NCBI GenBank assembly: GCA_024102795.1
Contig: JAGFJK010000188.1
Span: 1 to 64,000 of the forward strand
Origin: Pirellulaceae bacterium
GTDB taxonomy: Bacteria; Planctomycetota; Planctomycetia; Pirellulales; Pirellulaceae
Length of the DNA: 64,000 nt
Direction of reading: 5' to 3'
Positions 58,571-64,000 of the stretch are shown here, in pieces. A program made the position numbers and the translations under genes. Position 1 is the first letter of the stretch. The number at the start of each line of letters is the position of its first letter. Under the pieces are notes generated by a model, which saw only the letters and a program-made list of their open reading frames with translations, had not been told where the DNA came from and did no database searches.

Positions 58571-59278
58571 TTACCTGCCGCGCTGCCGATCCAGTTCCCG
58601 CTGCCTGTCGGCACTGGGATCTTCCGGCGTCACGCCCACCACGATATCGAAGTTCGCGGCGAACTCGCCCAGTTTCGAATCCGGAATCGGCTCGAACTTG
58701 ACCATCAGCGTCTGCCGCGCCTGGGGATCGGGCAGCGCCCGCAACACTCCGTCGCGTTCGTTCATCGGGTGGCCGGCGATGTAGCACTGCGTCGTTAGCA
58801 GCCGCTTGTCGCCTTGCTTGACGATGAAGTGGATGTGCGGCGTGCGGGGCACGTACGGGACCGGTTTGATCGTGCGGAAATAGTATTCGCCCTTGGAACC
58901 GGTCAGGAACCGGCCGAAGCCCTGGAAGTTGCGGTCCTGCTGCGGCTTGTTCGCGCTGCCGCTGTGCAGATACACGCCTTGCGCGTCGGCCTGCCAGATT
59001 TCCACCACCGCGTTGCGAATCGGCTCGCCGCTGCGACTCAGCACGCGCCCCGTCAGGTGCGTGATCTCGCCCACTGCGGGCGTCAACGCATCGTTCAGCA
59101 CCAGCAGGTCGTTGTCCGTGTCCAGCGGCAGCTTGTCGGGATAAAACGGCCCCTCCGTCTGCCGCGCCGTCAACATCAGCTCCTCGGCGAAGGCACCCGG
59201 CGCGCTGAGCCACGCGGCCGCCATGGTGGCGTGTTGCAGGAAACGGCGGCGGTGGCGCAATTCAGGCTGGCGCGGCAT
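58571..59278 (-). CDS. Tat-exported intradiol ring-cleavage dioxygenase
   Basis: A 235-residue protein of the protocatechuate 3,4-dioxygenase/catechol dioxygenase family, which opens aromatic diols using Fe(III). The N-terminus RHRRRFLQHATMAAAWLSAPGAFA is a twin-arginine-type signal, so the enzyme is probably exported folded with its iron. The four expected ligands are present: Tyr103 (GVYLH), Tyr132 or 133 (GEYYFRT) and His148 and His150 (PHIHF). The opening TEGPFYPDKLP is also conserved. Exported intradiol dioxygenases are common in planctomycetes; the real substrate is unknown. It is separated by 247 bases from the divergent ubiquitin-like operon. Confidence 0.93.
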   Translation of the reverse strand: MPRQPELRHRRRFLQHATMAAAWLSAPGAFAEELMLTARQTEGPFYPDKLPLDTDNDLLVLNDALTPAVGEITHLTGRVLSRSGEPIRNAVVEIWQADAQGVYLHSGSANKPQQDRNFQGFGRFLTGSKGEYYFRTIKPVPYVPRTPHIHFIVKQGDKRLLTTQCYIAGHPMNERDGVLRALPDPQARQTLMVKFEPIPDSKLGEFAANFDIVVGVTPEDPSADRQRELDRQRGR

Positions 59279-59525: not shown

Positions 59526-60149
59526 ATGTTACGAATCACCGTCTGGCAGAGAGGCAGCGATGGGGCCGTACCGCACGCCGTGACTGGCACGGTCCAACTG
59601 GGTCGCGGTGGCGGGCTCCGGGCCGCCGGCGAATTGCTGGGCAGCAGCGAGCTGGCTGGGCCGGCCGTGGTGCTGTCGCCGATCACGCCGCTGCAGGGCG
59701 CCGTGGCCGCCTTGCTGATTCCCGATGCTCCGGCAACCGCGGCTTGGGAAGCTTGCGGTCCGCTGCTCAACGGCACGCGGCCAACCGCTGGCCTGCAACT
59801 GCTGAGGCATGCCGACCGCCTGGAGTGGGGCGGCGAAACGTACTGGGTGTCGGCCCACGCCGAGGTCGAAGAGACGGACTTTGATCCGGCCGTCCATGGC
59901 GACGACAAGGACTGCTTCCTGACCAAGGCCCCGCTGGCCGCCGGCATGCGGATCAAGATCTGCCCCGGCGTGCCCGGCGTGTTGTGCGGAGTGATTTATA
60001 AGGCCGAGGCCTGGGACCTGGCGATGCAGCCCGGCAATGCAATCCGCTGCCCCAACTGCGGTTACGGGCCCGACGACGCCACGTGGCAGCCGCCACCTAG
60101 CCAGGCACGGAGGAATCTCGATGCGATTTTCCGACTTCTGCCCGCCTGA
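59526..60149 (+). CDS. degenerate RING/treble-clef protein, first gene of the ubiquitin-like operon
   Basis: A 207-residue protein from ATG 59526 (GGAG at about seven bases). The first 120 residues look beta-rich, with LLRHADRLEWGGETYWV strands. The C-terminal 80 residues have Cys130 (KDCFLTKAP), Cys146 (ICPG), Cys154 (LCG) and the CPNCGY pair at 175 and 178. This resembles the RING-like treble clefs known from bacterial ubiquitin-type operons, but the segment that would read YHxxCW is YKAEAW, so one zinc site appears lost. It may act as an E3-like adaptor or may be structural only. It overlaps the E1 gene by 29 bases. Confidence 0.65.
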   Translation: MLRITVWQRGSDGAVPHAVTGTVQLGRGGGLRAAGELLGSSELAGPAVVLSPITPLQGAVAALLIPDAPATAAWEACGPLLNGTRPTAGLQLLRHADRLEWGGETYWVSAHAEVEETDFDPAVHGDDKDCFLTKAPLAAGMRIKICPGVPGVLCGVIYKAEAWDLAMQPGNAIRCPNCGYGPDDATWQPPPSQARRNLDAIFRLLPA

Positions 60150-61347
60150 CGCGCAGCCGCCGGACCAGCACGAATTGCTCGACTCGACACCCGTTTCGAG
60201 CGTCGCGACAGCCGTGGCCGCGTCCAGCCGGCTCGGCCAGACCCGCACGATGCGCGACGGCGGCTACCAGCGCTGGTCGCAAGCGACACTGGGCATCGTC
60301 GGAGCGGGACTACTGGGCAGCCGGCTCACGCTGGACGCGGTCAGCTCCGGCGTCGGCTCGGTGCGGGTCTATGATTTCGACACCGGACAGGCCGAAAACC
60401 AGGCGACGCCCTACGTGCGGCCCGGCGTGCCGAAAGTCGAGACGCTGGCCGCGGCGTGCGAGGCGTTGCGGGCCGGTGTCGTGCGGGGATACCCGATCGA
60501 CATTCGCCACGCGGGGCTTAGCCACTGGCGCCAGTGCGACGTGCTAGTGGATTGCTCGGACGATGCCAGCCTGGCCTGGCCGCTGACCGAAACCGCCAAC
60601 GGCACCGGCACGCCGCTGTTGCGCTGCGCGGTCGATGGCAGCGGGCAGTGGGAACTGGGACGAGTGCTCTGTTCGGCCAGCCGGCCCGGCAGTGCCTGCC
60701 AGCTTTGCAGCTACTCGCTGGAGGAACTCGGCCGAGTCCTGGAGCGCACGCCGTGTCCGGGCGCGGCCGACGAGCTGGCACCGACCATCGCGGGCGGCGC
60801 CATCGCTTCGGCCGTCGCGGCGGTGGCGTTGCTGCAGGCGCAGCGGCTGGTCACGGGCAACGATCTCGATCAGGTCCTCGACCGCGAGATCCTGCTGGAC
60901 TTGACGCACATGCAGATGCACGCCCTGCGGTTGCCGCGGTCCGCTGAGTGCCTGAGCGGACATCTGGAGTGGCAACCGCTGCGAGCGGCCAGTCCCGGTC
61001 CCGGCATGACGCTGCGGCAACTGTTTCAACTGGCCGGCCGCATGCACGACGATCGACCCGTCATGCTGTGCGGCTACCAGCATCCGCTCAACGTGCAAGC
61101 GTTTTGCAGTTGCGGCCACGTCGCGCCGGCGGCCGGCACCGATTGGGCTTCGCCGCCGAGCTGCGTGCGGTGCGGGGCGGCGACAAATTGGTTGAAAGAA
61201 ACCCAGCGTGAGGGCGTATACCTTCACGAGGCCGAAGGACTGGGCATCGCGGACCGGCCGCTCGGCGAGCTGGGGTTCCCGGACGATGGTTCGCTGTGGC
61301 TGGTGCGGGACCAGCAGCGGCTGCTGGGGCGGCTGCTGCTGGAGTGA
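60121..61347 (+). CDS. E1-like ThiF-fold activating enzyme with C-terminal zinc ribbon
   Basis: A 408-residue protein predicted to adenylate the C-terminus of a ubiquitin-like protein. ATG 60121 has GGAGG at seven bases. A Rossmann GAGLLG lies at 61-66 (GIVGAGLLGSRL), Asp85/Asp87 in VYDFD bind ATP ribose and Mg, and VDCSDD is the later strand. A CxxC at 193-196 (ACQLCSY) and Cys212 (TPCPG) are candidates for structural zinc and the active-site thiol. The C-terminal zinc ribbon has C329-x-C331 and C348-x2-C351. The tail after it is about 50 residues. It is distinct from MoeB/ThiF proteins, which lack the ribbon tail. It begins inside the preceding gene and is followed by the E2 after 56 bases. 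Confidence 0.85.
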   Translation: MRFSDFCPPDAQPPDQHELLDSTPVSSVATAVAASSRLGQTRTMRDGGYQRWSQATLGIVGAGLLGSRLTLDAVSSGVGSVRVYDFDTGQAENQATPYVRPGVPKVETLAAACEALRAGVVRGYPIDIRHAGLSHWRQCDVLVDCSDDASLAWPLTETANGTGTPLLRCAVDGSGQWELGRVLCSASRPGSACQLCSYSLEELGRVLERTPCPGAADELAPTIAGGAIASAVAAVALLQAQRLVTGNDLDQVLDREILLDLTHMQMHALRLPRSAECLSGHLEWQPLRAASPGPGMTLRQLFQLAGRMHDDRPVMLCGYQHPLNVQAFCSCGHVAPAAGTDWASPPSCVRCGAATNWLKETQREGVYLHEAEGLGIADRPLGELGFPDDGSLWLVRDQQRLLGRLLLE

Positions 61348-61403
61348 AGGACGCTTCGGGCTACAAGGAAATCGCATCTGTTCGAGCAATGGAGAAGTCT
61401 CGC

Positions 61404-62015
61404 ATGAACGATTCGCGGACCACGCCCGTGGAAGCCGGCGACCTGCTGGCCGTGCTGGAATCGTTGGCTCGCCAGTCCGAGCAGTTGCCGGCCGCGGATA
61501 CGCCCGCCGGCAACCTGATGCGCCAGTTCCTGCACAACACCTGGTCGCATTGCCGCGAGCAGTTTCTGCCGAGAACGAAATTGCTGCGCGTGTGGCCGGA
61601 AGTGGGCAGCCCGCCGCGCGTGTTTCGTTTCGAACTGCTGCGGCCCTACAAGCGGAAACTGGGGACCGATGCGCCGGTGGAGCTGGTGCCCGGCCCGATC
61701 CGCGGCACCATCCACTACCGGGCGGACATGTTCTCCAACCCGCGCCTGCCGTATATCGCCGTGCAGATCGACCCGGAGTTGGGCTACTTCCATCCCAACT
61801 GCTCGCGGCGCCGCGGCAGCCTGGTCTGCCTGGGCGAGATCCCCGCCAACGCCTTTCCGTTCCCGTTGGCGACGCTGCTGGAGAACCACGTGTACCCGAT
61901 TCTCACCTACCAGAACCGGCGCCCGGCCCATCCGTTTGACGAGGAGGCCGCGCGCTACTTTGCCCTGGAACCGTCCGCCATGGATGGCTTGGAATCCGTC
62001 GAGCCGTTGTACTAA
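61404..62015 (+). CDS. E2-like (UBC-fold) conjugating protein
   Basis: A 203-residue protein predicted to carry the activated ubiquitin-like protein as a thioester. ATG 61404 has GGAG at nine bases; 61389 is an alternative. The middle shows the E2 pattern in order: a strand pair (VFRFELLRPYK, IHYRADMF), LPYIAVQID, HPN at 130-132, and CLG with Cys142 at the catalytic spacing (12 residues after the His of HPN, versus about 10 in eukaryotic E2s), then FPLATLLENHVYPILTY as the following helix. Cys133 immediately after HPN is a second candidate. No other domain is visible. Confidence 0.8.
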   Translation: MNDSRTTPVEAGDLLAVLESLARQSEQLPAADTPAGNLMRQFLHNTWSHCREQFLPRTKLLRVWPEVGSPPRVFRFELLRPYKRKLGTDAPVELVPGPIRGTIHYRADMFSNPRLPYIAVQIDPELGYFHPNCSRRRGSLVCLGEIPANAFPFPLATLLENHVYPILTYQNRRPAHPFDEEAARYFALEPSAMDGLESVEPLY

Positions 62016-62033
62016 CCCCGCCACGGAACCACC

Positions 62034-62924
62034 ATGTCCCACCCTCTCTCCGCAATGTTGCGCGCCGACGCGCGTCCCCCGCAGCCGACAATCGACCAGT
62101 TGCTGTCGAAAATCAAGCGAAAGAGTACGTTGTCCCTGGCGTCGATACCCGGCCTGCAGTTGAGCAGTCCGTTTCAAGGCCAGTTCCCGCTGGGCCAGCA
62201 GTGGGTCGACGTGGCGCTGGAACCCAGCGGTTCGGTCCGAGTTTCGCTGGAAGCCGCCTGGCCCGAAGTGCGGGAGGCCGCGCTCCGCGCCAGTCACGAC
62301 GTGGGCGGCAACCTCCGCTATGTCCGCCAGGGCGCCCGCGTGCTGCTGCAGGCCGACACCTATCTGGTCAGCACGTCGCAACTGGATGACAGCCTGCGGG
62401 AGATCCGCGCCGGTCTCTGGCAACTGCTGGGCCGGTCCAAGCGGGCGCAGCCCGAGCCGCCCGTGAGTCACCAGCGGGTCCAGCAGGCGCTGGCGGACCT
62501 GGCCTGGGATCCGCAGTCGATCGTGGCCACGGACGCCGGCTGGGAACTGCGTCCCCGGCTGGCGGGTGAAGCGGTGGCCGTGCGAATGGAACTGCGCGAG
62601 CAGCCGGCGGGACTGCGGCTGTGGCGGCCGCTGCTGGAACGGCTGCGTGATCCGGCCAGCGCCGCGCGCGTGGCGGTGACCGACGCCGCGCTGCGTCTCA
62701 ATTCGTTGCTCCGCCTGTCGCGGTTGGCCGAACGGGACGGAGTGCTGGTTTGCGAAGCCCACTTGCACGGCGGACTGATCGAGGGCCGTTGGCTGGACGT
62801 GGCGGCACGCGCGGTCGCCGCCGGCAGTCAATTCGCTCAGCCGCGGCTGCAACTGCTGCACGAGCAGGACGCGCTGGCCGCCCTGTACCAACGCGTGATG
62901 GTCGATACTGCGTGTTCGTCTTGA
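62034..62924 (+). CDS. unrecognised protein in the ubiquitin-like operon
   Basis: A 296-residue cytoplasmic protein, start ATG 62034, 18 bases after the E2 stop. The sequence seems to fall in two similar halves (a strand-rich GQQWVDVALEPSGSVRVSLEAAW and WELRPRLAGEAVAVRMELREQ, each followed by LxLLxxxxL helices). This two-lobe pattern is reminiscent of secretion-chaperone/YbjN-like folds, an unverified inference. Only one Cys pair near the end (CEAH and CSS) and no catalytic motif. Its conserved place between E2 and the ubiquitin-like gene suggests a role in the same pathway, for example as a target or regulator. Confidence 0.65.
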   Translation: MSHPLSAMLRADARPPQPTIDQLLSKIKRKSTLSLASIPGLQLSSPFQGQFPLGQQWVDVALEPSGSVRVSLEAAWPEVREAALRASHDVGGNLRYVRQGARVLLQADTYLVSTSQLDDSLREIRAGLWQLLGRSKRAQPEPPVSHQRVQQALADLAWDPQSIVATDAGWELRPRLAGEAVAVRMELREQPAGLRLWRPLLERLRDPASAARVAVTDAALRLNSLLRLSRLAERDGVLVCEAHLHGGLIEGRWLDVAARAVAAGSQFAQPRLQLLHEQDALAALYQRVMVDTACSS

Positions 62925-62984
62925 ACCGTTCGGCGGTCGAACGGGGCGACGCGCGCGTTCTCTTGATGGAGGAGGTGCAGCAAC

Positions 62985-63254
62985 ATGGTTGCCGCAACCC
63001 GCATCGCCATGTCGGACATCAGCCGGCAACGGCGGCTTGATGCGCGGCTGGAGGCTGACGGTTTGACCCGCCAGCACACAGTCGGGCAAGCGGTCGAGCA
63101 CTACCTGCAACGGATGAATATCCGTGACAACGGACTCCGTTGGACGGCGTTCAGCCGGGGCGTGAAGCTCGACAACAAGCAGCCCCTCGGCGAAATCGCC
63201 GAGACGGAAACCGACTGGACCGTGATGCCCGAAGTGAGCGCGGGAAGCCGTTAG
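62985..63254 (+). CDS. ubiquitin-like beta-grasp protein
   Basis: An 89-residue protein with a GGAGGAGG Shine-Dalgarno nine bases before ATG 62985 (63009 is an alternative start). Residues about 15-82 fit the beta-grasp order: strand RQRRLDARLE, strand-turn, helix TVGQAVEHYLQRM, strand RWTAFSRGVKL, LGEI, and final strand DWTVMPEVSAG. The C-terminus is AG-SR, with a single Gly87 rather than a GG pair, so maturation by removal of Ser-Arg would be needed to expose a Gly terminus. It is probably the modifier protein of the operon. Confidence 0.75.
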   Translation: MVAATRIAMSDISRQRRLDARLEADGLTRQHTVGQAVEHYLQRMNIRDNGLRWTAFSRGVKLDNKQPLGEIAETETDWTVMPEVSAGSR

Positions 63255-63383
63255 TCCAACGGCGCACCGCCCGACATGCCGTGCCGCCTCGAGCCGGCGG
63301 CCGCTGCGCGGCTGGTGGCAGGGGCGGCACGGTTCTCCGGCCCGACAGGAAATCGCTACTCATTTCAGAAAGTGACCGCGGCG

Positions 63384-64000
63384 ATGGAAACGGTGGTTGA
63401 AAACAGCTTCGAGTTCCTGCATGAACTGCGGCGTGAGGCCGACCTGTCGGGAATGCCACTGTCCAGCCAGGGCGCCGGCCAGGACGTGGCGGAATTGATT
63501 GACGAAGCCTACACGCTGGGAGTGCTGGGCGAGCGGTTCCTGGAAGGCTGCGACCGGCTGCGAGTGGAACTGCAACCGGTGTGGACCGAGCAGCCCGTGG
63601 TCAAGGAGCTGGCCATTACGCTGACCGCTGATCCGTCCGGCGAAACGCTCACCAGCCGCTTCGCCGCCGGCCGCTGGCTGCGATCCTGCCAGACCACCGC
63701 GCTCGAACTGCGCGAAGCCGGCGTGCTCGGCGAAGGCCAAACGGCGCATTCGATGCTGCTGGCCCTCCGCCGCCGCCAGCCGCCCGCGCTGGAGCTGCCG
63801 CCGTTGGCGCCGCCCCCGTGGTCCGAGCAGCCGCTGGAAGCGCTGGGCATCCGCCGCCTGGCCGACGGCACGCTCGACCCCGACCGTCCCGTTCTCATCA
63901 GCCAGCGTCTGGTCCGCGAAACAATCGAACGCTGCGAGGCGTCGGACACGACCGAAACCGGGGCCGCGGTGCTCGGCAAGTTGCTCCGCCTGCCCCAGCC
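63384..64000 (+). CDS. partial protein ending in a probable JAB/MPN domain start, cut by the window
   Basis: An open frame from ATG 63384 to the window end with no stop (about 205 residues visible). The first 140 residues (METVVENSFEFLHELRREADL..., ELAITLTADPSGETLTSRF...) are unrecognised. The visible end, VLISQRLVRETIERCEASDTTETGAAVLGKLLRL, matches the opening strand-helix of JAB1/MPN metalloproteases (E-T-G-A-V-L-G). The zinc-binding HxH...D motif would lie beyond the window. In ubiquitin-type operons this is the deconjugase or maturase. The start has no clear Shine-Dalgarno. Confidence 0.65.
   Translation, partial: METVVENSFEFLHELRREADLSGMPLSSQGAGQDVAELIDEAYTLGVLGERFLEGCDRLRVELQPVWTEQPVVKELAITLTADPSGETLTSRFAAGRWLRSCQTTALELREAGVLGEGQTAHSMLLALRRRQPPALELPPLAPPPWSEQPLEALGIRRLADGTLDPDRPVLISQRLVRETIERCEASDTTETGAAVLGKLLRLPQ

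Follow-up and report, generated by a model that had tools for sequence, protein, structure and literature searches.

A ten-gene planctomycete operon with predicted ubiquitin-like and Pup-like protein-tagging modules

The window analyzed here, i.e., the first 64000 bases of the 73154-base contig C433 (JAGFJK010000188.1) from a Pirellulaceae genome (97.6% complete), ends within a predicted operon encoding a ubiquitin-like conjugation cascade. Following the contig past the window end gave an operon of about twice the length seen in the window, whose second half is, as judged from profile matches, a pupylation-type module. The ten genes, with positions counted from the start of the contig, were assigned as follows, the nine cassettes mentioned for the E2 being the set of related loci described below.

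59526-60149, + strand: RING-like zinc protein whose N-terminal part is FHA-like, assigned by residue comparison and from RING-bearing orthologues
60121-61347, + strand: E1 (ThiF/Uba4-like), assigned by ThiF and PDB profile matches
61404-62015, + strand: E2 with an HPN motif (residues 130-132) and candidate catalytic Cys142, assigned by PDB profile match, model fold and invariance in nine cassettes
62034-62924, + strand: type III secretion chaperone/YbjN-like protein, assigned by predicted structure (Foldseek and VIA-align)
62985-63254, + strand: ubiquitin-like modifier (Ubl) precursor ending in PEVSAG-SR, assigned by residue comparison and a profile link to YukD-family Ubls
63384-64409, + strand, crossing the window end at 64000: JAB metallopeptidase, assigned by motifs and a Prok-JAB match
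64512-66272, same strand, contig C433 past the window: ARC/Mpa-like AAA ATPase, assigned by TIGR03689 and PDB matches (Mpa, ARC)
66308-67927, same strand, contig C433 past the window: Dop-like enzyme, assigned by PF03136 and a better match to Dop than to PafA
67931-68134, same strand, contig C433 past the window: Pup-like small protein of 67 residues ending in RRRNQSGQ, assigned by position and the C-terminal G-Q
68193-70562, same strand, contig C433 past the window: PafA-like ligase, extended at the C-terminus by a variable stretch, assigned by PF03136 and a better match to PafA than to Dop

All ten genes lie on the same strand with inter-gene gaps of -29 to 129 nucleotides, the start of the E1 gene overlapping the RING-like gene by 29 nucleotides, and a purine-rich stretch was found upstream of most gene starts. 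This layout suggests a single transcription unit. The initial annotation, drawn from the window, had listed six adjacent same-strand genes (RING-like, E1, E2, an unrecognised protein, Ubl and the start of JAB), and all six reading frames were recovered on the + strand where it had placed them, together with the motifs it had pointed out in the E1, E2 and Ubl and an extra zinc ribbon in the E1. It had also considered the right end of the operon to be missing, and the gene set is indeed cut at 64000; six genes are not its full extent, since four pupylation-type genes follow JAB.

The order RING, E1, E2, chaperone-like, Ubl, JAB, ATPase, Dop-like, Pup and PafA-like was kept in nine Planctomycetota cassettes: the present one and those of genomes G266 (QQVO01000032), G019 (JACQZJ010000176), G192, G571, G667, G016, G013 and G050. 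The G192 cassette is spread over two contigs, both ending within the ATPase gene, and two more loci (L022, L023) displayed the left part of the cassette only, cut by contig edges. Because the six-gene arrangement first seen in the window recurs in other genomes, it is not due to chance. Catalytic motifs of the E1, E2, JAB, ATPase, Dop-like and PafA-like proteins were kept in all nine cassettes. The tree built from E1, E2 and JAB (832 columns) and the tree built from the ATPase, Dop-like and PafA-like proteins (1435 columns) were identical in topology across the nine taxa, for which 135135 unrooted trees are possible; single-gene trees were less resolved and disagreed on weakly supported branches.

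In the RING-like protein of the operon, H124, C130, C146, C154, C175 and C178 were invariant and several canonical RING ligands were lost. Canonical ligands were found in the L078 orthologue (Prok-RING_1 at 6e-4, below the model cut-off) and in the L041-L043 orthologues, recognised by position and inspection. In the divergent cassettes (G667, G016, G013, G050), the ligands C-x2-C / C-x2-C / HH / C follow an FHA-like stretch; a divergent subtype devoid of the RING gene was considered and rejected, the gene having been missed by profile but found by eye. The RING-like protein is a possible E3 or adaptor. The E1 matched ThiF once (5e-18, residues 42-277 of 408) and, in PDB profile searches, Uba4 and Cap2. 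It carries the GAGLLG and VYDFD motifs (GxGxxG being conserved among relatives), a zinc pair C193/C196 with C277/H281, and the C-terminal zinc ribbon C329/C331/C348/C351. Cys212 is the candidate catalytic cysteine, and the roles of the other E1 cysteines are likewise putative.

No Pfam model matched the E2 directly. A four-sequence E2 profile searched against PDB matched eukaryotic E2s (best E 0.002), and the best 50 PDB matches of the AlphaFold model (predicted local distance difference test, pLDDT, of 84.6) in Foldseek were all E2s, the highest VIA-align Z-score being 12.8 (140 residues, 3.3 Å). The HPN132 motif and Cys142 were invariant in all nine cassettes. The E2 fold that had been anticipated for the product of 61404-62015 is thus borne out by the model, with a predicted active site of the eukaryotic HPN/Cys type.

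The Ubl is a single-domain protein of 89 amino acids whose PEVSAG motif is conserved in relatives. Five of ten sequences ended exactly in AG and the other five carried 2 to 7 extra residues. This is the pattern expected of a trimmed precursor, the AG end being invariant with or without the short tail, and JAB is encoded next door; trimming would take place at AG. No direct Pfam match was obtained for the Ubl. Its profile found Ubls of separate planctomycete systems (L077, L080, L085) that themselves match YukD (up to 6e-17), and through these sequences the Ubl of the operon is probably homologous to YukD-family Ubls; the beta-grasp fold read from its sequence in the initial annotation stays putative. 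The JAB gene start at 63384 was conserved in relatives, and the contig past 64000 completed the protein, which bears E-T-G, the expected HxH (HSH), SLQD (SxxD) and a four-Cys insertion; Prok-JAB matched it at 7.8e-5, slightly short of the Pfam cut-off. Profiles built from the RING, JAB and Ubl alignments yielded nothing useful when searched against the PDB.

The fourth gene (62034-62924), previously unrecognised, is indeed additional to the conjugation set, and its fold can be recognised from its model (pLDDT 87.0). Foldseek and VIA-align matched it to type III secretion chaperones and YbjN-like proteins. Residues 143-280 aligned in VIA-align to 8q8o (Z 11.6, 129 residues, 3.1 Å) and to VecA (Z 9.9), and the model firmly places this region in the type III secretion chaperone/YbjN-like fold. 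The N-terminal half, whose elements follow a similar order, probably represents a second copy of the same fold; its placement is less certain, since the VIA-align list covers almost only the C-terminal half. Type III secretion chaperones are known to engage their clients along extended segments, and the product of 62034-62924 may hold a client before its unfolding.

The four genes past JAB resembled a pupylation set. The best NCBIfam model of the ATPase was that of the proteasome ATPase (TIGR03689, 1.5e-33), and its PDB matches included Mpa and ARC. The Dop-like and PafA-like proteins passed the Pfam PF03136 cut-off (3e-32 and 1.5e-34, respectively), the former matching Dop better than PafA (4.5e-25 vs 3.3e-13) and the latter PafA better than Dop (1.3e-28 vs 8.8e-16). 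The PafA-like protein bears an E-V-E motif with E13 and E15. Every cassette had a Pup-like open reading frame (ORF) flanked by the two Pup-ligase-family genes; it ended in G-Q or G-E (GGQ or GGE in the divergent cassettes), as do 0.5% of ORFs across the fetched loci. At this place, genome G571 encoded two tandem Pup-like ORFs, both ending in PGQ, between its Dop-like and PafA-like genes (L076:1727-2369, - strand). A second, separate Pup system was observed on contig C461 of the genome under study, where a protein of the Pup-ligase family that carries a long hydrophobic insertion (L007:8603-10357, - strand), resembling the Rhodopirellula-type TM-PafA, is accompanied by a Pup-like protein ending in GGE (L007:10391-10627, - strand). 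Upstream of the operon, the window carries a divergently oriented gene (58571-59278, - strand) whose product looked intradiol dioxygenase-like by eye only.

Searches with the E2 profile displayed a patchy occurrence. Five named loci, all from planctomycete metagenome-assembled genomes (MAGs), were found in GTDB genomes; matches were also obtained in 7 of 392 phylum genomes, only some of which carry the ten-gene cassette, and in 32 of 397 class genomes, most of them lying apart from it. The E2 matches at L020 and L021 were weak. Eight of the weaker class matches (L077, L079-L085) were examined: beside the E2, most of these loci had a YukD-like Ubl and an E1; several of their Ubls ended in PEITAG or PEIVAG, with the tail present or absent, and no JAB or Pup-family gene was found within the stretch fetched. 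G667 and the genome under study are of one class, yet the G667 cassette grouped with those of other classes, a conflict which argues that the cassette probably moved, or was duplicated and lost, as a unit. In G353, a genome of the same family as the one under study, adjoining fragments of the E1 C-terminus, the E2 N-terminal half and the JAB N-terminus (L019:8991-9898) are apparently the remnant of a decayed cassette.

Such a scattered distribution, the sign of transfer as a unit given by G667 and the decay seen in G353 could fit a role in anti-phage defence or conflict, with invader proteins marked for unfolding by the conjugation modules, and Kaur et al. (PMC7159879) relate the Ubl part to conflict systems. 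We regard this explanation as unlikely: no defence model was matched except by generic E1 and AAA similarity, viral contigs gave no E2 match and plasmids no JAB match, and no effector or sensor gene was recognised among the operon genes.

A 20S core particle was not found by PF00227 in the nine cassette genomes, all of them MAGs (90-99% complete). Only HslV-type proteins were matched in the genome under study, G266, G571 and G667, and none in G019, G192, G016, G013 and G050. The protein of the genome under study was assigned to HslV by NCBIfam (4e-78); for G266, G571 and G667 the assignment was made solely by inspecting the sequences. The C-terminal HbYX/QYL docking motif was absent from the operon ATPases. 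Because HslV or nothing was found in place of 20S subunits, a remodelling or segregase-type system is suggested.

On balance, we find it somewhat probable that the ten genes form one operon whose two protein-tagging modules act in one pathway. More tentatively, and with rather more doubt than confidence, the Ubl mark (set by E1, E2 and RING) and the Pup mark (set by the PafA-like enzyme) may act one after the other on shared substrates and deliver them to a single ARC-like unfoldase working without 20S. Gene content and order, catalytic residues, co-inheritance, the folds of two proteins and the lack of a detectable 20S core come from the analysis itself, whereas the reactions, their order, the substrates and the cooperation of the tags are proposed. 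JAB would cut the Ubl back to AG, E1 would adenylate it and carry it on Cys212, and Cys142 of the E2, together with the RING-like protein, would hand it to the substrate. The Dop-like enzyme would deamidate the C-terminal Gln of Pup and could also reverse tagging, and the PafA-like enzyme would join Pup to a lysine. The ATPase would then pull the Pup tag and remodel or extract the substrate, feeding no 20S core, and the tags would be recycled by JAB and the Dop-like enzyme. That one substrate would receive both tags, with the Ubl as the selecting mark and Pup as the initiator for the motor, is the least certain step of the scheme.

Several observations weigh against this shared pathway. For the ATPase, Dop-like and PafA-like proteins, the matches fell well short of the NCBIfam equivalog cut-offs; JAB was also just below its Pfam cut-off, and the chemistry has possibly changed. 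The RING-like protein of the operon lacks several canonical ligands, and the incompleteness of the MAGs could hide 20S genes. The Pup-like protein matched no Pup model in Pfam and NCBIfam scans, although these models seem insensitive here, since the same scans also miss the Pup beside the TM-PafA gene of C461. Finally, Pup-like, PafA-like and Dop-like genes were found without an adjacent ubiquitin-like half at L044:604-4363 and L045:7345-12127 (the latter with an additional weak ATPase match), which suggests that the two modules are able to work apart.

These isolated Pup halves, along with the ubiquitin-like sets of L077 and L079-L085 near which no JAB or Pup genes were found, would also be expected if the operon held two independent tagging systems, brought together for a common stress response, with separate substrates and an ATPase serving the Pup side only. 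Identical trees of the two halves and an invariant ten-gene order over nine deeply divergent genomes suggest a closer dependence, and we consider full independence improbable, if still a serious alternative. The shared pathway remains our preferred reading. The operon places two predicted and chemically unrelated ways of tagging proteins beside a single unfolding motor, with no 20S core found, and makes a coupling of ubiquitin-like marks to ATP-driven substrate remodelling testable in bacteria, in a compact ten-gene system that could be rebuilt in a laboratory strain.

Among known systems, the initial annotation had rightly recognised a conjugation operon in a planctomycete and had read it as a member or variant of the Bil or type II CBASS (cyclic oligonucleotide-based antiphage signalling system) operons. 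These share the E1, E2, Ubl and JAB chemistry, all four parts being present here, and the E1 is weakly similar to CBASS E1-E2 models and to Cap2. The architecture differs. In Bil (BilABCD), BilA consists of tandem ubiquitin-like domains (PMC11354881) and the E1 holds an inactive and an active adenylation domain, whereas the operon encodes one single-domain Ubl and an E1 with one ThiF match. Type II CBASS comprises a CD-NTase, an effector and a fused E2-E1 (Cap2), whereas neither a CD-NTase nor an effector is found among the ten proteins, and E1 and E2 are separate. Neither Bil nor type II CBASS includes Pup-type genes, of which the operon has four of pupylation type. Because of the way its E1 is built, its single Ubl and its gene set, the operon was excluded from both types, and membership in either appears highly improbable.

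The planctomycete TM-PafA/Pup pair, described with no linked proteasome (Iyer et al. 2008, PMC2588565), likewise associates a Pup-ligase-family protein with Pup, and is represented by the pair on C461. It differs from the operon by its membrane-inserted PafA, its different family lineage and the lack of a Ubl module. With the actinobacterial Pup-proteasome (Pup, PafA, Dop, ARC/Mpa and 20S), the operon shares adjacent genes for Dop-like, PafA-like and ARC/Mpa-like proteins and a Pup-like protein with a G-[QE] end. Unlike that system, it displays strong divergence, an ATPase without HbYX tail and a full ubiquitin-like cascade, and no 20S was found. In Corynebacterium glutamicum, which lacks 20S subunits, Pup, PafA, Dop and ARC are present and have a non-degradative role (PMC12288473). 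This provides a precedent for core-less pupylation, as proposed for the present operon. We know of no Ubl, E1, E2, JAB or RING module attached to pupylation in C. glutamicum.

The closest likeness is to the Ubl-Pup coupling that Kaur et al. 2020 (eLife, PMC7159879) mention in one sentence for Thermofonsia and Planctomycetes; a Ubl part related to that of the FtsH-ternary systems is a further trait of this kind. That sentence gives no gene list, Pup-like sequence, ATPase or Dop/PafA assignment, or experiment, and the match to the exact subtype cannot be checked against it. No account of the anatomy or function of the locus was found in the literature searched; earlier surveys from that group (Burroughs et al. 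2011, 2012, 2015) may already list it in their tables. The phylum is the same, and Ubl-conjugation parts lie beside Pup conjugation in both cases, with the set of E1, E2, degenerate RING, JAB and Ubl and the Pup set found here in one conserved neighbourhood. As far as that sentence describes it, the operon belongs to this known, uncharacterised coupled Ubl-Pup kind. Ubiquitin-type and Pup-type tagging are usually treated as separate inventions for the same problem; in these planctomycetes they appear to be inherited as a unit.

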